A stretch of 64,000 bases of DNA from Deltaproteobacteria bacterium HGW-Deltaproteobacteria-18 (GTDB lineage Bacteria > Desulfobacterota > Desulfovibrionia > Desulfovibrionales > Desulfomicrobiaceae), in assembly GCA_002841885.1 (NCBI GenBank), contig PHBE01000006.1, positions 62,001-126,000 on the forward strand, in the 5' to 3' direction. Below the pieces are notes generated by a model. It saw nothing but the letters and a program-made list of their open reading frames with translations. It was not told the DNA's origin and made no database searches. Positions 25,183 through 44,410 of this stretch are shown piece after piece. Numbering within the stretch: the stretch's first letter is position 1; each line of letters begins with the position of its first letter. The position numbers were made by a program, and so were the translations under genes.

Positions 25183-25258
25183 GGGCCGTTAACTCAGACG
25201 GTAGAGTATCTGCCTTTTAAGCAGAGAGTCGAAGGTTCGATCCCTTCACGGCCCACCA
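25183..25258 (+). tRNA. tRNA-Lys (TTT)
   Basis: Cloverleaf with acceptor GGGCCGT/ACGGCCC, T-loop GTTCGATC, anticodon loop CTTTTAA (anticodon TTT) and an encoded CCA. First of five tRNAs. Confidence 0.97.
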
Positions 25259-25264
25259 AAATGC

Positions 25265-25340
25265 GTCCCCATCGTCTAGTGGCCTAGGACGGCGGCCTCT
25301 CACGCCGCTAACAGGGGTTCAAACCCCCTTGGGGACGCCA
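25265..25340 (+). tRNA. tRNA-Glu (CTC)
   Basis: Acceptor GTCCCCA/TGGGGAC, anticodon stem GCGGC/GCCGC fully paired around loop CTCTCAC (anticodon CTC), T-arm GGGGTTCAAACCCC, CCA encoded. Confidence 0.96.
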
Positions 25341-25366
25341 CTTTTTTTCTTCGACGCAAAACTTGC

Positions 25367-25444
25367 GTCCCCATCGTCTAGCTCGGTCCAGGACACCGGC
25401 CTTTCACGCCGATAACAGGGGTTCAAATCCCCTTGGGGACGCCA
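25367..25444 (+). tRNA. tRNA-Glu (TTC), copy 1
   Basis: Same acceptor as the CTC isoacceptor but with a D-loop two bases longer. The anticodon loop CTTTCAC gives TTC; CCA is encoded. The anticodon stem CCGGC/GCCGA has a C-A mismatch at its outer pair (27-43), present in both TTC copies. Confidence 0.95.
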
Positions 25445-25478
25445 CTTTTTTTTAGTTTCAGTTTTTTTGTTTTTTTGC

Positions 25479-25552
25479 TGGGTGATCGTTCAACGGTAGG
25501 ACAGCGGACTCTGACTCCGTCAATCTTAGTTCGAATCTAAGTCACCCAGCCA
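25479..25552 (+). tRNA. tRNA-Gln (CTG)
   Basis: Acceptor TGGGTGA/TCACCCA, anticodon loop CTCTGAC (anticodon CTG), T-loop GTTCGAAT, CCA encoded. No TTG isoacceptor is present in the window. Confidence 0.95.
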
Positions 25553-25555
25553 CCT

Positions 25556-25633
25556 GTCCCCATCGTCTAGCTCGGTCCAGGACACCGGCCTTTCACGCCG
25601 ATAACAGGGGTTCAAATCCCCTTGGGGACGCCA
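25556..25633 (+). tRNA. tRNA-Glu (TTC), copy 2
   Basis: Identical over its mature length to the copy at 25367-25444, including the unusual 27-43 C-A pair. It begins 3 nt after tRNA-Gln and is followed by a strong terminator. Confidence 0.95.
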
Positions 25634-28928: not shown

Positions 28929-29310
28929 TATTTTTTCCGGAATACCTTGGGATAATGGGCATGGTCGTCTGACACCCTTGTGGACTACATCCATGGAAAT
29001 CTCAAGGCATGCGAATAAACTGGTTCGAATTTGCCTGTATCAATACAGAAATCCGCGGCTGATCCTGAATTTTTCAATCTTGCGCGGCTGAAAATGCATT
29101 CTCATATCCACCGGCAAACAGTCCTTGATGGATCACTTTCAAATTTCCCCTTTCGCGAGCGGCAAAGGTAGGTTACACAATAATGCATCCAGCAAAGTCG
29201 CCAGGACCGGCCCGGATCCGGACAAAGCCTTTGATTCTGGAGGCGCTCATTTTCACGCGCAGCACGTCAATAAACCGCGACACACTTCGCCGTGCGTATT
29301 CGGAGGCTCC
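28929..29310. other. Intergenic region between two divergent hybrid kinases
   Basis: 382 nt, less GC-rich than the flanking genes. It probably holds both promoters, but no pair of hexamers was convincing. A good ribosome binding site (CGGAGG) lies before the plus-strand kinase at 29311. Confidence 0.45.
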
Positions 29311-32300
29311 ATGTTCGCTCGCCTGTTGCATGGCTCGATCAAAAAAAAGCTCGCCATCCTTTTTCTCGTGGCGGCACTCCCCGCAATCATCATCATCGTT
29401 TATGCCGGGCTGGAAAACCATCGCCGGGAAGTGTCCAGCGCCGAGCAACAGTTGCAGGCTTTTTCCGGTCATCTTGCAGAAACACAGGCCCAGGCCACGC
29501 TCGCCACCAAAGCGCTCCTTGAGGGTCTGGCCATGCTGCCTGAAGTGCGCCGGGGCGACGCCGAGGCGTGCAACCGCCTCCTTGCCAACCTGCTCAAAGT
29601 AAACCCGGCTTACGCGGCCCTCCATCTGGTTGATTCAAATGGAGATCTTGTCGCCTCCGACAGCGCGCGCAAACCCACGAACTTCGCCCACACGAGGCAC
29701 TTCAGGGAAGCCCTGGCCACAAAGAGCTTCGCCACGGGCGAATATCTCCTCGGCGTAACCCTGCACGTTCCCGTCTTCACCTTCGGTTATCCGGTTCTCG
29801 GCGATCAGGGAAACGTCACAGGCGTCCTGCTGACCAGTATCCGTCTCGACAGGTATGGGGAACTGTTCAGGCAAATCCATTTTCCGGCCAACTCTTTCAT
29901 CGGCGTCTGTGACAGAAACGGGCGGCGCCTCTTTCGTTACCCCGAAAACCCTGCCGCGATTATCGGAGAGTCGATCAAACAGACAGTCTTCGAACATGCC
30001 GTGGCCGGACCCTCCGAGGGCCTGCTCCTGGAAGAAAGCGCGGACGGGGTCGAGCGCATCACCGCCTTCCAGAAGCTGAGCCTGACCCCGGACAGCCCCC
30101 CGTACATGTACTTCTTTGTCGGGGCGCCCAGCGCCACGTTCTACGCCGACGCAAAGAGCGGTATGCTGCGCGATTTCAGCGTTCTCTTCCTGACCATCGG
30201 GCTGACCATGCTGAGCGGCTGGTTCCTGGGCGGCAGGACGGTTGGCATGCGGCTTGAAGAATTGGCAGGCGCAGCAAAGCGGATCGGCGAGGGCAATCTT
30301 TCCATCAGGGTGGCCCCCGCGCCCGAAATCACAGAAATCGACGTCCTGGCCAAGGCGTTCAACAGCATGGCCGAATCCCTTGAACAGGACACGATCAATA
30401 GGGCCAAGGCGGAAGAGGCGCGACGCAAGAGCGAGCACCGCTACGAAATCATCTTCCAGAATTCTCCACTGGGCATAATCTTGTTTGACCATGAGGGCTA
30501 CATCATCGACTGCAACGAACCGTTCATCCAGACCATGGGCTCATCCCGGGACAAACTGATCGGATTCAACACGGCTCGCCAGAGTTCCCCCAAAATGCGC
30601 GAAACGATCAAAAAAGCCCTGGCCGGAGAAGTGGCGGTCTTTGAGGACGAGTACACCTCCATCACCGGCGGAGTCACGAAAAGCCTGCGGGTCGTGTTCA
30701 ACCCCATTACGCCGGAACGGACGCCAACGAGCGTCATCGCCACTCTTGAAGACATTTCCGACCGCAAACGGACAGAGATGGCACTGCTGGAAAGCGAGGC
30801 CCGTTTCCGCAAACTCTTTGAACAGGTTCCCTCCATCGCTGTTCAAGGTTATGACTTGGAGGGTCGGACGCGCTACTGGAACCAGGCCTCGCAAAATCTA
30901 TACGGATACAGTCTGGACGAAGCGATCGGCGCCAAACTGACCGACCTGATCATCCCTCCGGAAATGCGCGAGGACGTCGAAGCCGCCATGCGCTCCATGG
31001 CGGAGACAAAAATTCCCATCCCCGCCAGCGAACTGACCCTCATGCGCAAGGACGGCTCCCGCGTGCTGGTCTTTTCAAGCCACGCCATCGTCATGAATGC
31101 CGCAGGAGAGGCCGAACTCTTTTGTGTGGACATCGATCTGACCAGCAGAAAAGAGGCTGAAGAGACCCTGCGGGGGCTCAAAGAGGCCGCAGAGGCCGCC
31201 AACCAGGCCAAAAGCGAATTTCTGGCCAACATGAGTCATGAAATCCGCACCCCGATAAACGGGGTCATGGGCATGCTGCAGCTCCTGGAAACCACCCCGC
31301 TTGATGCCGAGCAATCCAGCTACATCCGGATGGCCACGGAGGCCGCCAACAGGCTGACCAGGCTGCTTTCGGACATCCTTGATCTCTCCAGGGTGGAGGC
31401 TGGCAAGATGGAGATTCGAAAAGCTCCTTTCCATATCCGGGACATTGCCGACTCCGTGTCCGGCCTTTTCACGGTCACGGCCAGAAACAAGGGCGTAGCA
31501 CTGGAATGCAGTCTTGACCCGGCCATGCCCGCCACCCTGATCGGGGATGAAACGCGGGTGCGCCAGGTGCTCTTCAATCTGGTGGGCAACGCCCTCAAGT
31601 TCACCGATAACGGCAAGGTCCGCATGGAAGTCACGGCCCTGCCGCCAGACATGGATGGCGACATCCGTGTTCATTTCCTCGTCACGGATACAGGCATCGG
31701 CATTCCCGAGGACAGACTCCCCCTCATTTTCGAACCGTTCCGGCAGGTCGAAAACTCCTTCACCCGCAATTACCAGGGAGCAGGCCTGGGTCTGTCCATC
31801 GTGCACAGGCTGGTCGGACTCATGGGCGGAGAGATCTCCATCGAGAGCACGCCCGGCAGAGGCACGGCCGTGCATGTCATTCTGCCCTTCAAGACGGATT
31901 CAGGCACATCAATAACCGTCGAGGACGCAGTTCCGAAAAAAGGCGATACGGTCCGCGTGCTCCTGGTCGAGGACGACCCCTCCAACCGGATTCCCACCCA
32001 GAAGCTGCTGGAAAAAGCCGGACACGAAGTCACCTTGGCCGAAAACGGCAGACAGGCCCTTGAAGTGCTGGCCAAAAACGACTTCGACTGCGTTCTCATG
32101 GACATCCAGATGCCCGTCATGAACGGCATCGAGGCGACGCGCATCATCCGAGAATCAGACACCCTCGGCCCCAAAAAGGCCATCCCCATCATTGCCCTGA
32201 CCGCCTACGCCATGGACAAGGACAGGGACACTTTTCTGGCCGCCGGCATGAACGGATATGTCGCCAAGCCGGCAACCCTCGAAGAAATCACACGGGCCAT

Positions 32301-32379
32301 GCGGGAAGCCATGGGACTGGATAAATCCGGTGACGCCGCTGCGGCAAGGCATCAAGACTCCACTTTTGATTTGCCCTGA
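29311..32379 (+). CDS. Hybrid sensor histidine kinase: dCACHE-HAMP-PAS-PAS-HisKA-HATPase-REC
   Basis: 1022 residues. TM1 (about 12-35) and TM2 (about 285-307) bracket a periplasmic double-CACHE domain. Then come HAMP (MRLEELAGAAKRIGEGNL), two PAS domains, HisKA with His643 (MSHEIRTP), HATPase_c (GNALKFTD, DTGIGI) and a receiver with Asp931 (LMDIQMPVMNG). The start at 29311 follows CGGAGG at a proper distance; upstream in-frame sequence is not protein-like. The last ~360 residues closely match the divergent kinase at 25761, so the catalytic half was copied onto a different sensor. It is followed after 15 nt by a GGDEF-EAL gene, probably co-transcribed. Confidence 0.92.
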   Translation: MFARLLHGSIKKKLAILFLVAALPAIIIIVYAGLENHRREVSSAEQQLQAFSGHLAETQAQATLATKALLEGLAMLPEVRRGDAEACNRLLANLLKVNPAYAALHLVDSNGDLVASDSARKPTNFAHTRHFREALATKSFATGEYLLGVTLHVPVFTFGYPVLGDQGNVTGVLLTSIRLDRYGELFRQIHFPANSFIGVCDRNGRRLFRYPENPAAIIGESIKQTVFEHAVAGPSEGLLLEESADGVERITAFQKLSLTPDSPPYMYFFVGAPSATFYADAKSGMLRDFSVLFLTIGLTMLSGWFLGGRTVGMRLEELAGAAKRIGEGNLSIRVAPAPEITEIDVLAKAFNSMAESLEQDTINRAKAEEARRKSEHRYEIIFQNSPLGIILFDHEGYIIDCNEPFIQTMGSSRDKLIGFNTARQSSPKMRETIKKALAGEVAVFEDEYTSITGGVTKSLRVVFNPITPERTPTSVIATLEDISDRKRTEMALLESEARFRKLFEQVPSIAVQGYDLEGRTRYWNQASQNLYGYSLDEAIGAKLTDLIIPPEMREDVEAAMRSMAETKIPIPASELTLMRKDGSRVLVFSSHAIVMNAAGEAELFCVDIDLTSRKEAEETLRGLKEAAEAANQAKSEFLANMSHEIRTPINGVMGMLQLLETTPLDAEQSSYIRMATEAANRLTRLLSDILDLSRVEAGKMEIRKAPFHIRDIADSVSGLFTVTARNKGVALECSLDPAMPATLIGDETRVRQVLFNLVGNALKFTDNGKVRMEVTALPPDMDGDIRVHFLVTDTGIGIPEDRLPLIFEPFRQVENSFTRNYQGAGLGLSIVHRLVGLMGGEISIESTPGRGTAVHVILPFKTDSGTSITVEDAVPKKGDTVRVLLVEDDPSNRIPTQKLLEKAGHEVTLAENGRQALEVLAKNDFDCVLMDIQMPVMNGIEATRIIRESDTLGPKKAIPIIALTAYAMDKDRDTFLAAGMNGYVAKPATLEEITRAMREAMGLDKSGDAAAARHQDSTFDLP

Positions 32380-32394
32380 CCGGGCATCCAACTT

Positions 32395-35300
32395 ATGAAG
32401 CGGACCATGCCAAAAAAACTCCTCACCACCCTGCGCTCACGGGCGATTGTCGCGCTCACCGCGATCTTCCTGGTCATGGGAATTGGTTGCGTGCTCATGG
32501 TGGGAATTATCATCACAGAACGCCTGGACACCTTCGAGCGCGACCTGGCCGCGGCCAATGTCCGCCGCGCACGAAACGCCCTGCAGCAGGACATGCAACG
32601 CATCGACAACCTGCTCAAGGACTGGGCGTGGTGGGATGACACCTACGACTTCATGCTCACGACCTCGGGTGACTATGCACAAAGCAACATCACCCCGGAC
32701 GTGTTCCTCAACCAAGGCCTGAGCGCCATAATTTTCGTGACCGACAAGGGAGAAATCCTCAATGCCTCGCGGATTTCCCGCGATGACGGGACGCTCGGCG
32801 TCCCAAGCGAAGAGCTGCTCAACTATGTCAGAAGAACCGGCCTGACCTATCCCCCTGAAGACCTCTTCAGTGGCAGTCCGAAGCTGGTTAACGTCGGGGG
32901 GTCATTGTGGATCGCGGCAAGCCGCGCTGTGCTGACCTCCCAGCAGACCGGACCGGCGCGAGGACGGCTGTGGATGATCCAGGAGATCGATAACGCCTAC
33001 GTCGAAAAACTCACCCTGCGCACGGAACTGGCGCTGCAAATCAACGTCGCCGAAAAGGAAAAACTGCCGCAGGCCATGCTTGCACTGCACACCGCCCCCC
33101 CTGCGCCCGGGGAAACCCTCGTAGTCTCCGAAAACGGCCTCGTCTGGAGCGCCCTGCTCCTTTCCGACGCGGCAGGCGGCCCGCCCATAGCCATCATCGC
33201 CAATGCTCCGCGAGAGCTCACGATTCTGGCCCGCGCGACAATGAGAACCAGCCTCGCAGTGGTCATCGTGTTCGGAATTGTCGGCTTCTTCAGCGGCTTC
33301 GCCTTTCTCGAGAAGAGCATCCTGTCCAGGCTGTCGCTGCTGAGTTTGCGCGTCAGAAGGGATGCGCCGGATGCACAGCTGTGCAGGCTGGATCAAAACT
33401 GCGACGAAATCGACCAACTCTCGAACCTGGTGGACACGGCCTTCGAGTCCATCCATGAAAACGAGCGTTTTCTCAAACAAATCCTGGGCGCGATCAAGGT
33501 CGGCGTCATGCTCATCCGCAAGAAAGACCGGGTCATCGTCAGCGCGAATCCATATGCGATCGCCCTGGCCGGACGGCCTGAAAAGGACATTGTCGGCAGG
33601 GTCTGCCACCAGTTCTCCTGCGGCGCTGAATTCGGAAAATGCCCGGTCTGCGATCTCGGGCAAACCCTCGACAATCACAAATGCGAGTTTCTCGGCAATG
33701 ACGGCAAACGGATTGACATCCTTAAATCGGTGACCATAATCACCCGAAATGACGAGGAATATCTGCTTGAAACATTCTGGGACATCCGCGAGATCGAACG
33801 CACGCGGCGCCTCCTGGAGGAATCCGAGGAGAGGTACCGAGCGATTTTCCTGAACACTGGCACACCGGGAGTCCTCATCAACGAGGATACGTCCATCGCC
33901 GTCGCCAACACGGAATTCCTCCATCTGGCCGGAATCACACAGGACGACGTACTCCATAATCCGCCCTGGACACGCTTTTTCCATCCGGATGATGTGCAGA
34001 GAATGCTCCGCTACCACACTCTGAGACGTCAGAACGAAACCGTTGCGCCAAGAACCTATGAAGCGCGACTGGTTGACTCTTCGGGAGAGCATCATCACGT
34101 CAAGCTCACCGTGGCCATGATCCCGCGGTCACAGCAGTCCATCGCCTTCCTGCTCGACATCTCCGACATCAAGAGAGCCGAAGGGAAGCTGCATGAACTC
34201 GCCTACGCGGACGCTCTGACCGGGTTGCCCAATCGCCTCTGCGCCCTGGAGAGACTGGACCGGAGCCTGACGCGCCTCGACCCTGAGAGATCAAGCCTGG
34301 CCGTCCTCCTGCTCGATCTCGATGATTTCAAGATCATAAACGACTCCTGGGGCCACGCTGCCGGAGACATCGTGCTGATGGAGGTGGGACAGCGCCTGCT
34401 CTCTGCCCTTGATTCATCTGCAATGCTGGCCCGCCTCGGTGGCGACGAATTCATCGTCGTGTCCGGCGCCAGCGACAATGAAAACGAATATCCCAATCTG
34501 GCGCAAAAACTTATCGACACGTTCAGCAGACCCTTTAAGCTCGAAGGTTCCGAGACCTTTCTCGGGGTCAGCGTGGGTGTCGCCGTCTTCCCCAAAGACG
34601 GCAACACGGCGGGACAGTTGGTGCGATGCGCGGATCTGGCCATGTATCAGGCGAAATCCTTCGGCAAGAACATGTTCCATTTTCACTCCCCGGAATTGAC
34701 CCTGAAAGCTCAGCGCCGCGTGGAGATTGAGCGGGAGCTGCGCCTGGCCCTCGACGCAGGAGAAATTGTTGCTTTCTTCCAGCCGGTCATAGACCTTGAA
34801 ACCAAAAAAATCGTTGGGGCCGAAGCCCTGGCCCGTTGGCGCAAACAGGACGGAACCCTTGTCTCTCCGGCGGATTTCATACCCGTGGCGGAACAGACAA
34901 ACCTCATCACTGACATCGACTTCAGCATCCTCTCGCAGGCCTGCCACCAGGCCCGAAGTTGGGACAAGAACGGATGGGGACAATTGCGCATCTCCTGCAA
35001 CATCTCCGCGCGGCATTTTCAACGCGGCAACCTGCCAAGAGAAGTGCAACAGGTCCTTGAAGCCAGCCAATTGCCCCCGGGGCAGCTGACCCTTGAGGTC
35101 ACCGAGACGGTGTACATGGAAAACATCGACCAGGTTCGCGGCATCCTCGAATCCATTAACGAAATGGGCGTCCGGAGCGCCCTCGACGACTTCGGGACCG
35201 GCTATTCATCCCTGTCGTACGTACGTTCCCTTTCCTTCGACGTCCTCAAGATAGACAAGTCCTTCGTAAAGAACCTGCCCGAAGCGTCCGCGCTCGCCCT

Positions 35301-35487
35301 CATTCGCGCCATGCTCGGCATCGCCATCAGCCTGGAGATAACCCCGCTGGCCGAAGGCATAGAGACCGGGGAGCAACTCCAGCAGCTCAAATCACTGGGG
35401 TGCAAACTTGGGCAGGGATATCTGTTTTCGCCCCCGGTTCCCGCCGCACAGTTTGAAGAATTGCTCAAAAAACAGGACACCGCGTGA
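32395..35487 (+). CDS. CHASE4-PAS-GGDEF-EAL c-di-GMP turnover protein
   Basis: 1030 residues. A TM segment (about 16-38), a CHASE4-like periplasmic domain (WAWWDDTYDF motif), a second TM near residue 285, then one PAS with a Cys-rich insert (CHQFSCGAEFGKCPVC), a second PAS, a GGDEF domain with intact active site GGDEF at 682-686, and an EAL domain with EAL at 810-812 and DDFGTGYSSL. Both catalytic motifs look complete, so it could make and degrade c-di-GMP. Likely co-transcribed with the kinase upstream, which has a receiver but no output. Confidence 0.93.
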   Translation: MKRTMPKKLLTTLRSRAIVALTAIFLVMGIGCVLMVGIIITERLDTFERDLAAANVRRARNALQQDMQRIDNLLKDWAWWDDTYDFMLTTSGDYAQSNITPDVFLNQGLSAIIFVTDKGEILNASRISRDDGTLGVPSEELLNYVRRTGLTYPPEDLFSGSPKLVNVGGSLWIAASRAVLTSQQTGPARGRLWMIQEIDNAYVEKLTLRTELALQINVAEKEKLPQAMLALHTAPPAPGETLVVSENGLVWSALLLSDAAGGPPIAIIANAPRELTILARATMRTSLAVVIVFGIVGFFSGFAFLEKSILSRLSLLSLRVRRDAPDAQLCRLDQNCDEIDQLSNLVDTAFESIHENERFLKQILGAIKVGVMLIRKKDRVIVSANPYAIALAGRPEKDIVGRVCHQFSCGAEFGKCPVCDLGQTLDNHKCEFLGNDGKRIDILKSVTIITRNDEEYLLETFWDIREIERTRRLLEESEERYRAIFLNTGTPGVLINEDTSIAVANTEFLHLAGITQDDVLHNPPWTRFFHPDDVQRMLRYHTLRRQNETVAPRTYEARLVDSSGEHHHVKLTVAMIPRSQQSIAFLLDISDIKRAEGKLHELAYADALTGLPNRLCALERLDRSLTRLDPERSSLAVLLLDLDDFKIINDSWGHAAGDIVLMEVGQRLLSALDSSAMLARLGGDEFIVVSGASDNENEYPNLAQKLIDTFSRPFKLEGSETFLGVSVGVAVFPKDGNTAGQLVRCADLAMYQAKSFGKNMFHFHSPELTLKAQRRVEIERELRLALDAGEIVAFFQPVIDLETKKIVGAEALARWRKQDGTLVSPADFIPVAEQTNLITDIDFSILSQACHQARSWDKNGWGQLRISCNISARHFQRGNLPREVQQVLEASQLPPGQLTLEVTETVYMENIDQVRGILESINEMGVRSALDDFGTGYSSLSYVRSLSFDVLKIDKSFVKNLPEASALALIRAMLGIAISLEITPLAEGIETGEQLQQLKSLGCKLGQGYLFSPPVPAAQFEELLKKQDTA

Positions 35488-35633: not shown

Positions 35634-36701
35634 ATGGATCCCACCAATCTCATCCCCCAGGCCCTGCCCATTCCGGTGGAATGGGGCTGGTTCTACCTCT
35701 TTCAGGTTTCCACGTTCATCCTGCACATCCTGGTCATGAACGTCATGCTCGGCGCGTCCATCATCGCACTGGTCCATCATCTGCGAGGCAAGACTGAAAC
35801 CGAGTCTCTGACCAAATCCATTTCCGTCAAGCTGCCCTTCACCATCGCTTTTGCCGTCAATTTCGGAGTGGCGCCCCTGCTCTTCATACAGGTGCTCTAC
35901 GGGCAGTTCATCTACACCAGCAGCGTGCTCATGGCTGTTTACTGGCTGTCGGTCGTGGGGCTGATCATCATCGCCTACGCCAGCGCCTACATCTATGATT
36001 TCAGCTACGTCTCGCTTGGCGGCCTGCGCACTGTCTTCATCGGCCTGGCCACAGTATGCCTGCTGGCCACGGCCTTGATATTCACCCTCAACATGACCCT
36101 CATGCTCAACCCCGCCAGCTGGGACGCATATTTTGACAATCCATGGGGCACGCTGCTCAACACATCCGATCCGACCGTACTGCCGCGCTACCTGCACTTC
36201 GTCGCGTCATCGGTGGCGGTGGCGGGTCTGGCGCTGGCTCTCTTCTACAGATTCAAGGTCAAAAACGATCCCGGGGCCCAGCGCTGGGTCCGACACGGCA
36301 TGAACTGGTACGCCTACACGACCATGGTGCAGATGGCGCTGGGCCTGTGGTTTCTCACTGCCCTGCCCGACCGCGTCACGGCTCTCCTGCTGGGCGGCTC
36401 CCTGCCGCACACCCTTGTTTTTGTCACGGGCGCGACCATCGGAATTTTCAGCATCAGCAACGCCCTTCGCTACAACGCGGGCGCGACGGCGACCCTGTCC
36501 CTCGCCACCATAATCCTCATGCTCTTTCTGCGGGACCTGGTCCGGGACGCCTACCTGACCCCATATTTTGAGGTGAGCGACCGCGTCGTCACCGGCGAAT
36601 ATCTCCCGCTTGTCCTTTTCATCCTGACCCTGGCGGCCGGGCTGTGCATCATTGCCTGGATGCTCCGTACCGCCGCCACGGACTCGGAGGTGCGCTCATG
36701 A
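35634..36701 (+). CDS. CydA-like (CydA'-type) polytopic membrane protein without evident heme ligands
   Basis: 355 residues, about nine TM segments. The first 120 residues align by pattern with the CydA-like domain of the next gene (PVEWGWFYLFQVSTFILHI against WELHWAGGG; then a GVAPLLFIQVLYG segment where the neighbour has GVGIWFII). The acidic heme/proton-site residues of CydA are replaced by Tyr and Trp. It overlaps the next gene by 4 nt, so the two very likely form one complex, similar in principle to CydAA'-type members of the bd superfamily. Ribosome binding site CGGAG before the ATG. Function is inferred, not recognised directly. Confidence 0.65.
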   Translation: MDPTNLIPQALPIPVEWGWFYLFQVSTFILHILVMNVMLGASIIALVHHLRGKTETESLTKSISVKLPFTIAFAVNFGVAPLLFIQVLYGQFIYTSSVLMAVYWLSVVGLIIIAYASAYIYDFSYVSLGGLRTVFIGLATVCLLATALIFTLNMTLMLNPASWDAYFDNPWGTLLNTSDPTVLPRYLHFVASSVAVAGLALALFYRFKVKNDPGAQRWVRHGMNWYAYTTMVQMALGLWFLTALPDRVTALLLGGSLPHTLVFVTGATIGIFSISNALRYNAGATATLSLATIILMLFLRDLVRDAYLTPYFEVSDRVVTGEYLPLVLFILTLAAGLCIIAWMLRTAATDSEVRS

Positions 36702-39343
36702 ACTTTCCAATCTGGGAACTCCACTGGGCCGGCGGCGGGCTGATGATCGCGCTGATTGCCGTCTTTCATGTCTATATCGCCCACTTTGCCGTGGGCGGAG
36801 GGCTCTTTCTCGTTCTGACCGAACAACTCGGCTACCGCCGGGACTCCCAGCCCATCATCGACTACACGAAACGGCATACCAAATTCTTTTTGCTGGTGAC
36901 CATGGTCCTGGGCGGAATCACCGGAGTGGGCATCTGGTTCATCATCTCACTGGTCGCGCCCGCGGCCACGACCCAGCTCATCCACACCTTCGTCTTTGCC
37001 TGGGCCATCGAATGGGTCTTTTTCCTGTGCGAAATCGTGTCTTTGTTCATCTATTTCTACACCTTTGGAAAAATGGGGAGACGCAACCATCTCACCATCG
37101 GCTGGCTCTATTTCTTCTTCGGGTGGATGTCGCTCTTCATGATCAACGGGATCATCGGTTTCATGCTGACTCCCGGGGACTGGCTGGAGACAAGAGACTT
37201 CTGGGACGGACTCTTCAACCCCTCCTTCTGGCCGGCACTGGCCTTCAGAACCTTTATTGCCATCATCCTGGCCGGACTTTACGGCTTCGTGACCGCCACT
37301 TGGGAAAAGGATCCCCAGACCCGTGAAACCCTGGTCCGCTACTGCGCGACCTGGCTGCTGGCCCCCTTCGCCTTTCTGCTTCTGTCGGGGTGGTGGTACG
37401 TGAGCGTGCTGCCCGAAGGCCCGCAGGCCATGGTCCTCGGTGCGAACCCGGAAATCGGCCCGTACATGCAGGGATTCCTGTGGATATCGGCGATCCTTTT
37501 TGCCGCAGGCCTGGCCATGGCCGTACGCATGCCGGCCGCAATCAAGCGCCCCATGGCCCTGGTCCTGCTCGTCATAGGCCTGCTGTACATGGGCTGCTTT
37601 GAAACCATGCGTGAAGCCGGACGCAGACCCTACCTGATCCATGGCTACATGTACTCCAACGCCATCCTGGCCGGCACCGAAGACGCCATCTCCGCCGAGG
37701 GCTTTCTGCAAACCTCGAGCTGGCACCAAAACCGGGAGATCACCCCTGAAAACGCCAGGGCCGCGGGTCGCGAGATTTTTCGAGGCCAGTGCGCAGCCTG
37801 CCACTCCATCGGCGGCCCCCTGCACAACATCAAACGCCTGGCCGCGCAATTCGGAACCGTGGGCCTCGAAGCCCAGATCGCGGGCATGGGCAAGATATAT
37901 TCCTACATGCCGCGTTTTGCGGGCACGCCGCAGGAGCGCAAGGCCCTGGCCTCCTACATCGTGCATGACCTGATCGGCGCCCCCGAGGTCACGAAACAAA
38001 CCCGACCCCGCCCCGAACTCGAACTTGAAATCCCGGCCTTCGATGCCCAGGACGACGAGTACGTACTTTTGGCCTGGTGCACCCTGGGCGAAAAATGCAT
38101 CTCCGACAGTGACAGCCGCTTCTCCCTGTTGCCTCCGGGCAGCACCCTGATGGCGCAGCTCATCCGACGCGGCCCGGTGCCCGAGCTCGTGACCGAGGGC
38201 GTGGAAATTACCTTCACGGCCCCGGCGGGCTTCGAAAATCCGAGCAACCATGTGGAATTCTGGAATTACGCACCTTCGCTGGTGGGCAAGGAGCTGGCAC
38301 CGAACGTCAGCGCCAAGGGCCTGGGCATGTCGGGCGTGATGAAGCCAAACGACCAGAGCCTGACCTTTCTGGCCGACGGCATCCCCGTCCTGCCCTACAC
38401 GGACGACGGCACCATCAACCCCTATCCCGTCTTCAATCTTGAAGCCAGGGATGCCAAGACCGGCAAGGTCCTGGCCGGCACCAAGGTCGTGGCCCCGGTC
38501 TCTACCGAGATCGGCTGCAAGAACTGTCACGGCGGAACGTGGCGACACGACGGTGCCATGGGCATCTCCGTGCTGACGGCCTCGGATGTCCTGGCCAGAC
38601 ATGACCGGCGTCACAAGACCGGTCTGCTGCCCCAGGCGGAAGCAGGCAAGCCGGTGCTTTGCCAGAGCTGCCATCCCGATCCGCTGCTCAAGGCAGAAGG
38701 CAAACCGGAGCTCTTGAACCTCCCGGCCGCCATCCACGGATTCCACGCCAACTACCTGTCCGAAGCTCCCGGCGCCGAACCCTGCCATTCCTGCCATCCC
38801 ACCGGCCCGGACAGCTACACCTATTGCGCCCGTGGCGCGCATGCGAGCAAGGGAGTGACCTGTGTCAGCTGCCACGGCACCCTGGAAGACCACGCCCTGA
38901 CCCTGCTCAAGGCCGAAAAAGAGGCAGGCAAGCCCAAGGCCGACCTGCTCATGCGTCATATCAAGCCCAGACTGGTCGCCTCCGTTGAAGAAATCGAGCC
39001 TCGCACGCCATGGAACGACCAACCGGACTGCCTGAGCTGTCACGTGGACTTTGAACCGCCGCAAGATGCGCAGCCTTCAGCCTTCAACCAATGGGTACGC
39101 GGACCGCAAGGGCTTTATCGCATGCGCACCGACGACGCGGGGCTCATGTGCGAATCCTGCCACGGCTCGACCCACGCCGAATATCCGGCCGCCAACGCGT
39201 TTCACCCGGATCTCGATGCGATCCAGCCGTTGCAGTACCAGGGCCACCCAGGCCCCATCGGGAGCAAGGGCAACTGCGCGGCTTGCCACACCGAGGACAT
39301 GTTCGACGAATTCCATCATCCCAACATTCTCAGACAGCTCTGA
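36698..39343 (+). CDS. Membrane CydA-like domain fused to an octaheme cytochrome c
   Basis: 881 residues. Residues 1-330: about eight TM segments with CydA landmarks, namely VFHVYIAHF (heme-ligand His region), the acidic pair in AIEWVFFLCE, and GRRPYLIHGYMYSNAI matching the conserved CydA segment after the Q loop. Then eight CxxCH motifs at residues 365, 607, 655, 696, 722, 778, 818 and 860. The first lies in a monoheme class-I-like domain (with MPRF as Met ligand); the other seven form a multiheme tail. It may move electrons between the menaquinone pool and periplasmic cytochromes. The start at 36698 follows CGGAGG; a longer upstream reading lies inside the previous gene. Confidence 0.85.
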   Translation: MNFPIWELHWAGGGLMIALIAVFHVYIAHFAVGGGLFLVLTEQLGYRRDSQPIIDYTKRHTKFFLLVTMVLGGITGVGIWFIISLVAPAATTQLIHTFVFAWAIEWVFFLCEIVSLFIYFYTFGKMGRRNHLTIGWLYFFFGWMSLFMINGIIGFMLTPGDWLETRDFWDGLFNPSFWPALAFRTFIAIILAGLYGFVTATWEKDPQTRETLVRYCATWLLAPFAFLLLSGWWYVSVLPEGPQAMVLGANPEIGPYMQGFLWISAILFAAGLAMAVRMPAAIKRPMALVLLVIGLLYMGCFETMREAGRRPYLIHGYMYSNAILAGTEDAISAEGFLQTSSWHQNREITPENARAAGREIFRGQCAACHSIGGPLHNIKRLAAQFGTVGLEAQIAGMGKIYSYMPRFAGTPQERKALASYIVHDLIGAPEVTKQTRPRPELELEIPAFDAQDDEYVLLAWCTLGEKCISDSDSRFSLLPPGSTLMAQLIRRGPVPELVTEGVEITFTAPAGFENPSNHVEFWNYAPSLVGKELAPNVSAKGLGMSGVMKPNDQSLTFLADGIPVLPYTDDGTINPYPVFNLEARDAKTGKVLAGTKVVAPVSTEIGCKNCHGGTWRHDGAMGISVLTASDVLARHDRRHKTGLLPQAEAGKPVLCQSCHPDPLLKAEGKPELLNLPAAIHGFHANYLSEAPGAEPCHSCHPTGPDSYTYCARGAHASKGVTCVSCHGTLEDHALTLLKAEKEAGKPKADLLMRHIKPRLVASVEEIEPRTPWNDQPDCLSCHVDFEPPQDAQPSAFNQWVRGPQGLYRMRTDDAGLMCESCHGSTHAEYPAANAFHPDLDAIQPLQYQGHPGPIGSKGNCAACHTEDMFDEFHHPNILRQL

Positions 39344-39872: not shown

Positions 39873-41573
39873 ATGATCCAATCCTCTCCAGTCAAAGACA
39901 ACTCAGCCCGGACAAACAAAAGCATCACGTCTCCCCGTCTCATGAGCGGTCAATTGACCGTCCTGTCCATTCTGGTTGCCGTAGTGCCGCTCCTGTGCAT
40001 CGCGACCCTGGGCTATGTTTTTTACGATGCTGCATACCGGGAAAAAACCCAGGTGCTCCTGGCTGAAAAGGCAATGAATTCGGTCCAGAACCTGGACGGT
40101 TTTCTCGAAGAAAAGATCGCCAATCTCCGCCAGGAAACCGACTCGGCGTCCATAGCGGAGCTGTCGGACCCCGGCCATCTGCGCGCCCGTCTACACTCCC
40201 TGCAAAACGCCTATCAGGGCGTCTTCCTGGGCCTTGATCTTGTCGACGCAAGCGGCACGATCATCGCCGGCACCGGGAACGAAAGTTCGCAGCCGGTCCC
40301 GGCCAAAGAGTCGTGGTTCGCGCAGGCCATAAGCCGCCCCCAGTTTGTCAGCAATCTGGCGCTATGCGAGACATACTGCTTCCTTGCCGTGCGCATCACC
40401 TCCGAGCAGACGGCCTGGCTGCTGCGGGCCCACCTCGATCCGGACCTGATCCAGGCAAAGATCCGCCTCTTCCATCCCGGAGGAACCGGAGGCGCATTTT
40501 TCCTGGACCGCCAGGGCGCATACAGCGCTGCCAGCGGCGCCGAACCGGACAGCCGGGAAACAACGCTATTGCTTGCCCAGCAAATTTTCCCCGAAGGCAG
40601 GCCCGTGGTCCTGGAAGCCAAGGACGCCAGCGGCCAGACCAATCTCTACGGCTGCGCGCCGCTGCGAACCACTGGCAACATCCTGGCCATCCGCCAGCCC
40701 AAGGATCAGCTGCTGCAACCGCTGCACAAAGCCCGCCTGCTGGCCCTGGCCATCATCATCGCCGGGTGCATCGGCGTCATCATTACCGCGCTGGCCTTGG
40801 CCAAGCGAACGGAGCAGCGCCTGCTAAAAGCCGAACGGGAACTGCAGCAGATGCAAAAGCAGGTCATGGATGCGGGCAAACTGGCCGCCATCGGGGAGCT
40901 TGCGGCCGGTGTCGCGCACGAGATCAACAATCCCCTGGCCATCATGATGGAGAACGCGGGCTGGATCCAGGACCTGCTCAAATCGGACGACCCGCACAGC
41001 CAGGAGAACACCGAGGAAATCTTTTCGTCCCTGCTGACCATCACCACCCAGGGACATCGCTGCCGGGAGATCACGCACAAGCTGCTCAGCTTCGCGCGCA
41101 AGGCCGACACCACGACAAAGGTGGTGCATATCAACTCGCTGCTGGAGGACATTGCCGGATTCGCGCGGCAAAAGGCCAAATACCGGGACGTGGAAATCAG
41201 GCTGGCCCTTGATCCCAAGGTGGGGGAAGTCGAGAGTTCACCCACCGAAATTCAGCAGATCATACTGAACCTCGTCAACAATGCCATCGACGCCATCGAG
41301 AAGGACAACGGGCTGGTGCAATTGCGTTCCTCCCACGAAGACAGCTTCGTGCGCATCGATGTCGAGGACAATGGACAGGGCATCCCCGAAGATATCCTGC
41401 CGAACATTTTCGAACCGTTTTTCACCACCAAGGCTGCCGGCAAGGGCACCGGCCTTGGACTGTCCATTTGCCGGGACCTGCTCTCGAAAATGGGCGGCTC
41501 CATCAGCGTGGAGTCCACTTCGGGCCAGGGTTGCGTTTTTCATGTCCGCCTGCCTGCGAGTTCCCCAAAATGA
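39873..41573 (+). CDS. Membrane sensor histidine kinase (CACHE sensor, NtrB/DctB-like core)
   Basis: 566 residues: TM1 (about 28-52), periplasmic CACHE-like sensor domain to about residue 285, TM2 (about 290-312), a short coiled coil, HisKA with His349 in GVAHEINNPLAIM, and HATPase_c (NLVNNAIDAI, DNGQGI, KGTGLGLSI). The HEINNP form is typical of kinases that partner sigma-54 response regulators. No response regulator is adjacent; the nearest such regulator in the window (56678) lies beside another kinase. Stimulus unknown. Confidence 0.88.
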   Translation: MIQSSPVKDNSARTNKSITSPRLMSGQLTVLSILVAVVPLLCIATLGYVFYDAAYREKTQVLLAEKAMNSVQNLDGFLEEKIANLRQETDSASIAELSDPGHLRARLHSLQNAYQGVFLGLDLVDASGTIIAGTGNESSQPVPAKESWFAQAISRPQFVSNLALCETYCFLAVRITSEQTAWLLRAHLDPDLIQAKIRLFHPGGTGGAFFLDRQGAYSAASGAEPDSRETTLLLAQQIFPEGRPVVLEAKDASGQTNLYGCAPLRTTGNILAIRQPKDQLLQPLHKARLLALAIIIAGCIGVIITALALAKRTEQRLLKAERELQQMQKQVMDAGKLAAIGELAAGVAHEINNPLAIMMENAGWIQDLLKSDDPHSQENTEEIFSSLLTITTQGHRCREITHKLLSFARKADTTTKVVHINSLLEDIAGFARQKAKYRDVEIRLALDPKVGEVESSPTEIQQIILNLVNNAIDAIEKDNGLVQLRSSHEDSFVRIDVEDNGQGIPEDILPNIFEPFFTTKAAGKGTGLGLSICRDLLSKMGGSISVESTSGQGCVFHVRLPASSPK

Positions 41574-41609
41574 ATTCCACGTCTGACAAAAGAGAGTTGC
41601 CTGCTCAAT

Positions 41610-41638
41610 TTGACTCCATAATTTTCTCTCTGTAAGAC
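41610..41638 (+). promoter_or_regulatory. Candidate promoter of the MshEN-ATPase/HDOD operon
   Basis: TTGACT (41610-41615), a 17-nt spacer and TAAGAC (41633-41638), 38 nt before the start codon. Confidence 0.45.
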
Positions 41639-41675
41639 CTTGTCGCTACTGATCAACTCTCACCGTGGAGCCCCG

Positions 41676-43556
41676 ATGCCGAAGGATAATCCCAAGACCA
41701 GCGAACCAACTACCCACGGCGAACTCATTGGCATACTCATCAAGGAAGGACTCCTCACGGACGCGCAGGCGCTCCACGCCTCACGGCTGCGCAAAAAACT
41801 CGTCCGTCCCAAGCCCCTGCTCGAAATCGTCAAGGAACTCGGGTATGTAACCGGGGACCAGGTTACCGCAGCCATCCGCAAGAACAAGCTGTCCATGCGC
41901 ATCGGCAGCCTGCTCCTTGAGCTCGGGCTGATCAGCGAGGCGGATCTTGAAGCCGCCTTTCAGATACAGCGTACCAGCAAGACCCCGCAGAAGCTGGGCG
42001 AAGTCCTGGTCAACAATAATTTCATCAAGGAATTCAAGCTCCTTGAAGCACTTTCCTTGCAGCTTGGCTACCCATTCGTGGATCCCAGATTCACAAACCT
42101 CGACATCTCCCTTCTGCACCAGATTCCGGTCACGTACCGGAACAAGGCGAGCTATGTGCCCATTGAAAGGCAGGAGCACCAGGTCGTCGTGGCTTTTGCC
42201 AATGTCCTGGACCTGGACGACCAGGAAGAGGCGCGCACCATCTTTCCAGAAGGCATCCTGCCGGCCATCGCCACGCGCGAATCCATCGTCGAGACCTACC
42301 AGCGCTTCGAGCGCGGCTCTCAGAACAAGGAATCCGTTGATGACGATTCGGCCTCGGGCATCGTGGAGCGCATCATCCTTGACGCCATCGACCTCGATGT
42401 CAGCGACATCCACATGGAGCCCCTCCCGGACCGTCTGCGCATCCGCTTCCGGCGCGACGGGGTGCTCGAACCCTACAAGGACTTCCCGCGCGAGATAATC
42501 CCCAACATCTCGAGCCGCATCAAGATCATGTGCAAGGCGGACATCGCCGAAAAGCGCCGGCACCAGGGCGGGCGCATCCTGTTCGAATACCCCGGCGGCG
42601 AACTGGACATGCGGGCCTCCTTCTATGTGACCATCCACGGCGAGGCCATCGTGCTGCGGCTTTTGAACCGCCAGGGCAACCTCATCGACATCACTGGCAT
42701 CGGGATGTACCCGAAGATACTCAAGCGCTTTCTCGACGGGGCGCTGTCCCGGCCGAGCGGCGTAGTGATCATCACCGGCCCCACGGGCTCGGGCAAGACG
42801 ACCACGGTCTACAGCTGCATTCACCACCTGAATACCCCGCTCCTGTCCATCATCACCGCCGAAGAGCCGGTGGAATACGTCATCCCGGGCATCTCCCAGT
42901 GCTCCATCGACCCCAAGATCAACCTGACCTTCGAGGAGACCCTGCGCCACATCGTGCGCCAGGACCCGGATGTCATCCTCATCGGCGAGATCCGCGACAA
43001 CTATTCGGCCGAGGTGGCCGTGCAGGCAGCCCTGACCGGGCACAAGGTCCTGACCACCTTCCACACCGAAGACTCCATCGGCGGCCTGATCCGGCTCATG
43101 AACATGGACATCGAGGCTTTCCTCATCTCCTCCACCGTGGTCAGCGTGGTCGCCCAGCGACTCCTGCGGCGCATCTGTCCGGAGTGCTCCCAGCCGTACA
43201 AGCCGAGCCCGGGCGAGCTGCAGCTTTTCGGCTACACGCAGACCTCGATCCAGGGCTCCAATTTTCGCAAGGGCGCGGGCTGTTCCCACTGCCGTTACAC
43301 GGGCTACCGGGGCCGCATCGCGGTGTTCGAACTGCTCATTCTCGATGAAATGGTCCGCGCCGCCATCCTTGAACGGCGGACCAGCTTCGACATCCGCAAG
43401 ATCGCCCTGGAGAGCGCGGGGCTTGTGACACTTTTCGAAGAAGGTCTGGTCAAGGCCGCCGAAGGCCTCACCACCCTGGAAGAGGTCATGCGCTGCCTGC
43501 CTCTTGTTCTCAAACCACGCCCTCTGGAAGAAACCCGCCGCCTGCTCGGAGTTTAG
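41676..43556 (+). CDS. GspE/PilB/MshE-family secretion ATPase with MshEN-like N-terminal domains
   Basis: 626 residues. The first ~210 residues contain MshEN/T2SSE_N-type repeats (LIGILIKEGLLTDAQ; MRIGSLLLELGLISEADLEAA; KLGEVLVNNNFI), a fold that binds c-di-GMP in MshE. The ATPase core has Walker A GPTGSGKTTT near residue 367, the Asp-box and Walker B region (QDPDVILIGEIRD), and a zinc-binding Cys4 (CPEC and CSHC, residues about 500-535). Normally it powers type II secretion or type IV pili, but no pilin, PilC/GspF or secretin gene is nearby. Start at 41676 with GGAG upstream. Confidence 0.9.
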   Translation: MPKDNPKTSEPTTHGELIGILIKEGLLTDAQALHASRLRKKLVRPKPLLEIVKELGYVTGDQVTAAIRKNKLSMRIGSLLLELGLISEADLEAAFQIQRTSKTPQKLGEVLVNNNFIKEFKLLEALSLQLGYPFVDPRFTNLDISLLHQIPVTYRNKASYVPIERQEHQVVVAFANVLDLDDQEEARTIFPEGILPAIATRESIVETYQRFERGSQNKESVDDDSASGIVERIILDAIDLDVSDIHMEPLPDRLRIRFRRDGVLEPYKDFPREIIPNISSRIKIMCKADIAEKRRHQGGRILFEYPGGELDMRASFYVTIHGEAIVLRLLNRQGNLIDITGIGMYPKILKRFLDGALSRPSGVVIITGPTGSGKTTTVYSCIHHLNTPLLSIITAEEPVEYVIPGISQCSIDPKINLTFEETLRHIVRQDPDVILIGEIRDNYSAEVAVQAALTGHKVLTTFHTEDSIGGLIRLMNMDIEAFLISSTVVSVVAQRLLRRICPECSQPYKPSPGELQLFGYTQTSIQGSNFRKGAGCSHCRYTGYRGRIAVFELLILDEMVRAAILERRTSFDIRKIALESAGLVTLFEEGLVKAAEGLTTLEEVMRCLPLVLKPRPLEETRRLLGV

Positions 43557-43558
43557 CA

Positions 43559-44410
43559 ATGAACGAGGCCAAGTCTTTTATCGAAATCCTCATGGAGCAT
43601 GTGAACTCGGACAAGGCGCAGCTCCCGCCGTTCAATCGCACAGGCCTTGCCATCCAGCAGGAGATGGCAAAGCCGGATCCGGACATGCAGATCATCGAAA
43701 AACAGATCCTGCGCGATCCGGCCATAGCCGGTCAGCTCCTCAAGGTGGCGAACTCGTCCTTTTACCGGGGCATGATCGAAGTGACCACGGTCAGAAACGC
43801 CATGGTCCGCCTCGGCCTGGCGGAGGTCTCCAACCTGGTCACCCTGCTGACCCAGAAACAGTCCTTCAGCACCCAGGATTCCTTTATCCGCGAATACATG
43901 GATCAACTCTGGATCCACTCCGTGGCCTGCGCCCTTGGCGCAAAATGGATCGCCAAGGAATGCCGGCTGCCGAGCAAGATGAACGAGGCTTTTTTCGCAG
44001 GTCTCCTGCACGACATCGGCAAGGCCTTCCTGCTCATGGCCATCGCCGACCTGAAAAAAAGCGGGCAGCTGGGCGAGACAGTTCCGCAGTCCTTCATCCA
44101 GGAAGTCCTCGAAACCCAGCACCAAAGCATCGGCGCGCAACTGCTCAAGACCTGGAATCTGCCTGAAATCTACTGCGCCGTGGCCGAAAACCATCATGAC
44201 GAGAACATGGACGGCCGGGACATCGTGTTGCTCATAGTCAGCCTGGCCAACAAGGTCCTGGCCAAGGCCGGAATCGGGCTCATGCACACCCCGGACATCG
44301 ACCTGGCGACCAGCCCCGAAGCGATCCAGTTGGACCTTTCCGAGATCAAGGTCGCCGAACTGGAACTTACCATGGAAGATTACGTGGAGTTTGTAGGGGA
44401 AGTGGCCTGA
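43559..44410 (+). CDS. HDOD-domain signalling protein
   Basis: 283 residues spanned by an HDOD domain (residues about 20-215), with LLKVANSSFYRG and the HD-like motif FFAGLLHDIGKAFLL. HDOD proteins are usually non-enzymatic scaffolds in signalling and motility, although the HD motif is retained here. It begins 2 nt after the ATPase stop, so the two are translationally linked and probably act together. Confidence 0.88.
   Translation: MNEAKSFIEILMEHVNSDKAQLPPFNRTGLAIQQEMAKPDPDMQIIEKQILRDPAIAGQLLKVANSSFYRGMIEVTTVRNAMVRLGLAEVSNLVTLLTQKQSFSTQDSFIREYMDQLWIHSVACALGAKWIAKECRLPSKMNEAFFAGLLHDIGKAFLLMAIADLKKSGQLGETVPQSFIQEVLETQHQSIGAQLLKTWNLPEIYCAVAENHHDENMDGRDIVLLIVSLANKVLAKAGIGLMHTPDIDLATSPEAIQLDLSEIKVAELELTMEDYVEFVGEVA

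Follow-up and report, generated by a model that had tools for sequence, protein, structure and literature searches.

Introduction

By what means strict anaerobes dispose of O2, and which pool supplies the electrons, has long been a question. A pair of adjoining genes in Deltaproteobacteria bacterium HGW-Deltaproteobacteria-18, probably a sulfate-reducing bacterium, raises it in a concrete form. The genes, here called P1 and P2, lie in a stretch of 64,000 nucleotides (the window; contig PHBE01000006.1, positions 62,001 to 126,000). P2 joins eight c-type heme motifs to a membrane domain like that of CydA, a subunit of cytochrome bd, and P1 is a paralogue of that domain. Do the two proteins take electrons from quinol and pass them out along the c hemes, or do they take them from cytochromes and pass them to O2? 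A sequence-only reading of the window had proposed the former. We consider it fairly probable that the two proteins are the subunits of one bd-type oxygen reductase, which works without quinol and is fed by periplasmic cytochrome c. The most telling feature of the pair is a largely complementary loss of CydA ligands. The pair predicts a testable answer, the oxidation of periplasmic cytochrome c at a bd-type site with no part for quinone.

Results

The genes and the parts of P2 are listed below in positions of the window (aa, amino acids).

35634 to 36701, + strand: P1, 355 aa; a CydA paralogue with nine long helices and no c heme
36698 to 39343, + strand: P2, 881 aa; the whole octaheme CydA-like protein
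36698 to 37666, + strand: P2 membrane domain, aa 1-323; CydA fold with eight long helices
37742 to 37975, + strand: P2 class I cytochrome c domain, aa 349-426; CAACH at 365-369 and an invariant M404
38015 to 39340, + strand: P2 C-terminal heptaheme module, aa 440-881; seven CxxCH motifs and seven further invariant His

P2 starts at the ATG at 36698, in an ATGA overlap with the P1 stop codon; the GTG at 36644 given in the list of open reading frames (ORFs) lies inside P1. Relatives were gathered by a contig search, which returned at least 586 stretches that match the pattern, 551 of them encoding a relative. The best 80 are our named loci, and counts on 80 refer to these. A full-length P2 is found in 70 of the 80; 67 went into the 68-row alignment A3, while L112, L115 and L125 were excluded for doubtful starts. 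P1 was taken from 67 named loci for alignment A4, also of 68 rows.

P2 had been described as a CydA-like membrane domain fused to a monoheme domain and seven further hemes, and this description holds. The Pfam family Cyt_bd_oxida_I matches residues 18-197 (E 4.8e-11), the Pfam CBB3-type cytochrome c matches 355-422 with 26.1 bits, slightly below the cut-off of 27, and Cytochrome_C7 matches 777-866, with multiheme matches within 695-874. Eight CxxCH motifs are present, one in the cytochrome c domain (365) and seven in the C-terminal module (607, 655, 696, 722, 778, 818 and 860), and the Cys and His of all eight are invariant in A3. M404 is also invariant and is likely the axial ligand of the class I c heme. 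Apart from those in the CxxCH motifs, just seven histidines of the heptaheme module never vary (635, 680, 683, 715, 826, 873 and 874, each in 68 of 68 rows), and from the alignment they are candidate distal heme ligands; H732 is conserved in 65 of 68. Taken together, M404 and the seven histidines would fit one His/Met and seven bis-His hemes. The idea of an ordinary CydA followed by a chance run of heme motifs was ruled out, since the motifs and the further histidines do not vary in 68 rows.

The heptaheme module looks recruited, because homologues exist as stand-alone cytochromes of anaerobes. All six fetched examples, with 7-11 CxxCH motifs, match P2 440-881 at 233-299 bits. Unlike P2, these separate proteins, 452-577 aa long, have no membrane domain; by eye, their N-terminus resembles a leader. 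A fold search with the whole P2 model gave no clear match for the module.

To describe the membrane domains we use Escherichia coli CydA numbering, with numbers and roles that we take as given. H19, E99, E107, E445 and R448 presumably bear or serve the O2 site, H186 is taken as the b558 histidine with M393 as its Met partner, and K252 and E257 are assigned to the known quinol site. The ligands were mapped by motif onto the CydA of the window's own genome and then followed in a mixed alignment of every third row of A3 and A4 (23 P2 and 23 P1, of 68 each) with 15 short P2, 14 short P1 and 31 CydA sequences. The equivalents in P2 are H24 (H19), E105 (E99), E112 (E107), E306 (E445) and R309 (R448), and those in P1 are H31 (H19), H188 (H186) and R304 (R448). 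Two motifs that had been singled out in P2 do carry such residues: AIEWVFFLCE holds the equivalents of E99 and E107, and GRRPYLIHGYMYSN those of E445 and R448.

Every group has H19. E99 and E107 are found in all CydA (31/31), P2 (23/23) and short P2 (15/15) rows and in none of the 37 P1-type rows, which bears out the earlier view of P1 as a CydA-like paralogue without these acidic ligands. Between the two paralogues H186 has the opposite distribution. It is kept in 31/31 CydA, 23/23 P1 and 14/14 short P1, and lost in all 38 P2-type rows, the window's own P2 having F183 at this position. E445 and R448 occur in every CydA and every P2-type row (short P2, 15/15). The full alignments agree: H24, E105, E112, R184, E302, R305, E306 and R309 of P2 are each invariant in A3 (68/68), as are H31, M296 and R300 of P1 in A4 (68/68), with H188 in 67 of 68.

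The quinol loop (Q-loop) is shortened in both proteins. Its region is 28-40 residues long in the 75 P1-type and P2-type rows (35 in 23/23 P2, 30-31 in the 23 P1) versus 87-98 in the 31 CydA. K252, E257 and M393 are conserved in CydA only. Among the 75 rows K252 is Lys in two, E257 is Glu in none, and the two never occur together; the M393 column has Met in a single row, and the window's own pair has Thr (P1) and Ile (P2) there. As read from these alignments, the paralogues have divided the CydA ligands, the O2 site going with P2, the b558 histidine with P1 and the known quinol site with neither.

Three further positions in the membrane domains deserve a mention. H29 of P2 (36782-36784) is a second histidine five residues past the heme histidine; it is kept in 64/68 P2 and 15/15 short P2, whereas 30 of 31 CydA have Pro there, and it might be a new ligand or a proton residue. 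R184 of P2 (37247-37249) stands beside the lost H186 position and is invariant, as listed above. M296 of P1 (36519-36521), in the eighth long helix, is Gly in the 31 CydA and Phe in the 23 P2, and might bind a heme in P1 as axial ligand.

Models of P1 and P2 were made with AlphaFold2 from the 68-row alignments, with a predicted local distance difference test of 92.8 and 91.2, respectively. Placing the two proteins as a pair in the bd superfamily, as the sequence-only reading did, survived this structural check, as both the CydA fold and b/d-type ligands were found. P1 aligns with 7ose_A (CydA) at Z 26.9 (325 residues, 3.5 A, over 14-348) and P2 at Z 31.2 (315 residues, root-mean-square deviation 3.1 A, over 7-323). 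The next-best fold for P2 after CydA is ActC at Z 18.1. Across both proteins the NrfD-type folds reach 16.8-18.1 (ActC/ActF-type chains) and 14.9 and 16.5 (PsrC), against 24.1-31.2 for CydA, and the top Foldseek matches are 5doq_A (P1) and 9r2g_A (P2). The P2 model has eight long helices ahead of the c hemes and the P1 model nine. With eight, both ends of the P2 membrane domain lie on one side of the membrane, and by the model the c hemes would be periplasmic, provided that the P2 chain, like that of CydA, begins on the outside.

For P1 the fold alone does not tell CydA from CydB, because the Foldseek template modelling (TM) scores are equally high: 0.67 for 9r2g_D (CydB by rank and length) and 0.66 for 5doq_A, the latter having the best E-value. 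In each of ten bd entries the CydA chain ranked best (VIA). P1 as a CydB was ruled out by an hhalign probability of 0.6% against CydB and by the retention of H19 and H186, despite the equal TM-scores. P1 and the P2 membrane domain, in turn, align with each other at 97% probability (hhalign, E 1.3e-10, 270 columns). Hidden Markov models of P1 match 58 of 81 P2 ORFs, and those of P2 match 33 of 71 P1 ORFs (E<1e-3). In public collections P1 is hard to place: it has no Pfam or NCBIfam match up to E = 1, the 68 P1 members share no consistent Pfam family, and a sequence search among solved structures found no credible relative (best E 1.3).

In a quick tree of 109 rows, made without bootstrap and with long branches flagged, the P1-type (37/37), P2-type (38/38) and CydA (31/31) sequences each fall on one side of a branch, with support of 100, 98 and 99 in the Shimodaira-Hasegawa-like approximate likelihood ratio test. 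The split between P1 and P2 therefore seems older than the variants described below. A second tree of the same kind added nine sequences from seven loci of the Nitrospirota phylum, with L217 and L218 left out. The P2-type (38/38, support 97) and P1-type (37/37, support 100) groups persist, and seven presumed members of the OR-N family lie outside both.

P1 and P2 are a near-constant pair. P1 lies upstream of P2 on the same strand in 73 of the 80 named loci, six of the 73 being cut by a contig end; in four of the 73 the mechanically called P2 ORF begins far upstream within P1. Of the seven unpaired loci, L073 and L114 have the P2 start cut by a contig end, and the other five have P1 elsewhere in the genome (5/5). 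For example, P1 is at 5.77 Mb and P2 at 0.76 Mb on the Desulfonema magnum chromosome, and in G641 the distant P1 is in two fragments. Among 61 related genomes P1 is found in 42, all within the 45 that have a P2-like match. The three relatives without P1 have a poor P2 match, which is partial (G021), weak (G038) or 26 residues long (G053).

The pair is widespread, in lineages that are mostly anaerobic. Related genomes have one-piece P2 homologues of 46-91% identity. P2-like matches at E<=1e-3 occur in the 45 of 61 relatives, in 166 of 247 genomes of the class and in 106 of 395 of the phylum, counts that also include short forms, heptaheme proteins standing alone and weak matches to CydA; of the 395 in the phylum set, 12 span the query in one piece. 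Hosts of the named loci, with taxon labels of metagenome-assembled genomes as deposited, comprise 43 Thermodesulfobacteriota, 8 Bacteroidota, 2 Calditrichota, 2 Nitrospirota, 7 labelled Pseudomonadota, 4 labelled Myxococcota, one from each of five phyla, and 9 unassigned. In a few genomes P2 is in several pieces or frames (G011:C1:1232356-1235895, of the same genus, L120 and L131). Thermodesulfovibrio sp. N1 and Salidesulfovibrio brasiliensis are among the hosts of a broken P2, by decay or sequencing error. No third gene recurs among the neighbours of the listed loci, as judged by eye with greedy ORF calling, and a larger operon was dropped on this basis.

The core of P1 and P2 also occurs with other sets of c hemes. 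A one-heme P2 followed by P1 is found in L195-L199 and L201-L203 (the heme count of L202 as called), and P1 with a one-heme P2 in L204. A diheme protein stands with a one-heme P2 and a two-heme P1 in L194, L200 and L038-L042, and a three-heme P2 with P1 in L205 and L206. In L205 (4510-8935) the three-heme P2 and P1 are followed by a separate 501-aa protein with eight CxxCH motifs, which may be the multiheme partner in unfused form. All variants share one c heme that follows the final helix of P2; we read this heme as an electron port beside the diheme site. Varying sets of c hemes on a constant core are what one would expect if the c hemes are the port.

Some related arrangements were also seen. 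L221 (584-3172, Thermodesulfovibrio phylum) has adjoining CydA-like proteins of 408 and 440 aa on long branches. This pair is uneven, with H19 and H186 in both proteins and E99 and E107 in the second only. In L188-L193 long CydA-like proteins adjoin two-heme proteins; an ORF of 617-731 aa was recovered in L188-L190, where the CydA-like protein has Y at E99, S at E445 and a retained H186.

Discussion

What would such a pair do? The sequence-only reading had quinol oxidation feeding periplasmic wires instead of O2. The loss of the Q-loop and of K252 and E257, together with O2-site residues that P2 keeps in 68 of 68 rows, argues against that direction and for a flow from the c hemes to O2. From the residues kept and lost in P1 and P2 we infer both direction and substrate; the complex, its heme types and its donor are predictions of the same model. 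Electrons would come from the periplasmic cytochrome pool, probably from low-potential cytochromes such as c3 that are fed by H2 or formate. They would enter at the seven hemes of the P2 C-terminal module, pass to the His/Met-type c heme and go on to the CydA core of P2, possibly via a b heme held by H188 of P1. A b595/d-type diheme site in P2 would then reduce O2 to water, with protons arriving by an E99/E107-type path, while P1 would take the place of CydB and perhaps hold one or more b hemes. The outcome would be O2 scavenging at the inner membrane without a draw on the quinone pool.

More tentatively, we suggest how the system may have arisen. A CydA ancestor was possibly duplicated and its functions then split, leaving the O2 diheme site to P2 and the b558 histidine to P1, with a wire of eight hemes in the place of quinol that brings quinone-independent periplasmic or extracellular electrons to O2. 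We would not bet on this full scenario, but if it is true, such a route is present in many sulfate reducers, Bacteroidota, Calditrichota and Thermodesulfovibrio. As a cytochrome-fed oxygen reductase the pair would be a bd enzyme supplied by a multiheme chain and would show how cofactor ligands can be divided between duplicated subunits. Furthermore, it would offer a pointer to function for a gene pair of many anaerobic lineages.

Several observations weigh against a cytochrome-fed oxidase with divided ligands. On these sequences the ligand split is clean for E99, E107 and H186 and not for E445 and R448. R448 is kept in 23/23 P1 and 10/14 short P1, and the E445 column has Glu in 3/23 P1 and 8/14 short P1 (11 of 37 P1-type rows). 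In the window's own P1 it has Asp. More than one heme may thus be bound by P1. The absence of M393 from both proteins puts the heme route through P1 in doubt. Sequence links to CydA are modest for P2 (profile-profile 25%, E 7.5e-4, 211 columns) and weak for P1 (0.9%, E 0.06, 81 columns around H186). The c-heme port could also serve as an electron exit. The hosts are mostly anaerobes, and a canonical-type CydA was found in 11 of the 12 genomes checked for it (in one as a fragment); why a further O2 reductase would be needed is thus hard to see. Oxidative-stress genes are rare neighbours, with rubrerythrin-like proteins near 3/80 and Rrf2-like regulators near 7/80 loci, counted without a background control; an oxidative-stress neighbourhood was accordingly dropped as strong support.

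Other explanations have to be weighed against these residues. That the CydA-like pair oxidizes quinol and its eight c hemes carry the electrons outward, to acceptors in the periplasm or outside the cell, is in keeping with the CydA ancestry, the H186-type ligand of P1 and the kinship of the C-terminal module with stand-alone multiheme cytochromes. At the quinol end, however, nothing speaks for it: the known loop is shortened, its Glu is gone in 75 of 75 P1-type and P2-type rows, and O2-site residues are kept in 38 of 38 P2-type rows. We regard it as unlikely, though a quinone site may lie elsewhere. Could the pair be a cytochrome c:menaquinone reductase, its c hemes being reduced by cytochrome c3 and its membrane part passing the electrons to menaquinone? 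We doubt this to much the same degree, since Qrc already has that role in many hosts, no quinone site is recognisable and the invariant O2-site residues would be left unexplained. Still, P1 and P2 are common in sulfate reducers, where QrcABCD works between periplasm and quinone according to a passage of PMC6303296, and part of PMC6606698 suggests reverse electron flow for one bd-like oxidase cluster of Nitrospira moscoviensis.

A cytochrome-c-fed reductase of nitric oxide (NO) or H2O2, working at a bd-type diheme site for detoxification, would be in keeping with the retained site residues and could draw on the few Rrf2-like regulators. Canonical bd has catalase activity and interacts with NO, according to work cited in PMC10839748. 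Neither the residues nor the neighbourhood separate this from O2 reduction, and we think it improbable. Least credible is a protein that stores electrons or acts as a sensor without catalysis. Eight c hemes could hold charge, and signalling genes flank the pair in the window, but those genes do not recur by eye beside the listed loci, and strict conservation of the O2-site equivalents and of E99/E107 is hard to square with a non-catalytic role.

Canonical cytochrome bd (CydAB, of the qOR family; PDB 5doq, 6rko and 7ose) shares the CydA-like fold with both P1 and P2, along with H19, E99, E107, E445 and R448 in P2 and H19, H186 and R448 in P1. It differs in its Q-loop, which is replaced by a short loop in P1 and P2, in its H186/M393 pair, which neither P1 nor P2 has in one chain, and in its second subunit, CydB rather than a CydA paralogue (P1). 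P2, furthermore, has eight long membrane helices and eight c hemes. Another family of the superfamily, OR-C, is associated with c-type heme. P1 and P2 resemble OR-C, which is known here by description only, in having a c heme and no recognisable quinol site, and by elimination P2 may belong to it. OR-C (Murali, Gennis and Hemp 2021) is named in passages of PMC13189123, PMC10839748 and PMC11707229. Three bd families, of which qOR holds the quinol site, are described in parts of PMC10839748 and PMC13189123, citing Murali 2021. By the same parts of these two papers, bd relatives that lack a quinol site already form a recognised class, and cytochrome c is the proposed donor for some of them; to speak of a new system, as the earlier reading did, was thus too strong.

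The third family, OR-N, probably uses cytochrome c according to a passage of PMC10839748, and two CydA-like paralogues make CydAA' in those parts of PMC10839748 and PMC12342949 that treat it. For Nitrospira a bd-like protein has been proposed as a terminal oxidase (PMC6606698, in part). Two CydA-like paralogues and a short loop, of 33 residues in seven OR-N-like sequences from Nitrospirota/Nitrospinota, are likenesses to our pair; the label OR-N is our own assignment from phylum and context. These seven differ in keeping H186, in having Y, L or I for E99 and S for E445, in lacking a fused CxxCH and in their place outside the P1 and P2 groups of the tree. Among the papers listed in a literature search that covered subscription journals thinly, none dealt with a fusion of CydA to eight c hemes. 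With the comparison to OR-C made by description only, the fused protein and its divided ligand set look like a variant that is widespread and has yet to be characterised.

Other features of the window

The pair is flanked by the following genes.

29248 to 35487, upstream flank: dCache/PAS hybrid histidine kinase; CHASE4-PAS-GGDEF-EAL protein
39873 to 44407, downstream flank: dCache kinase; T2SSE/MshEN ATPase; HDOD protein

Canonical CydA and CydB genes lie elsewhere on the same contig as P1 and P2. Farther upstream, at 25183-25633, five tRNA genes lie clustered in the window (Lys, Glu-ctc, Glu-ttc, Gln and Glu-ttc), with Glu-ttc occurring twice.

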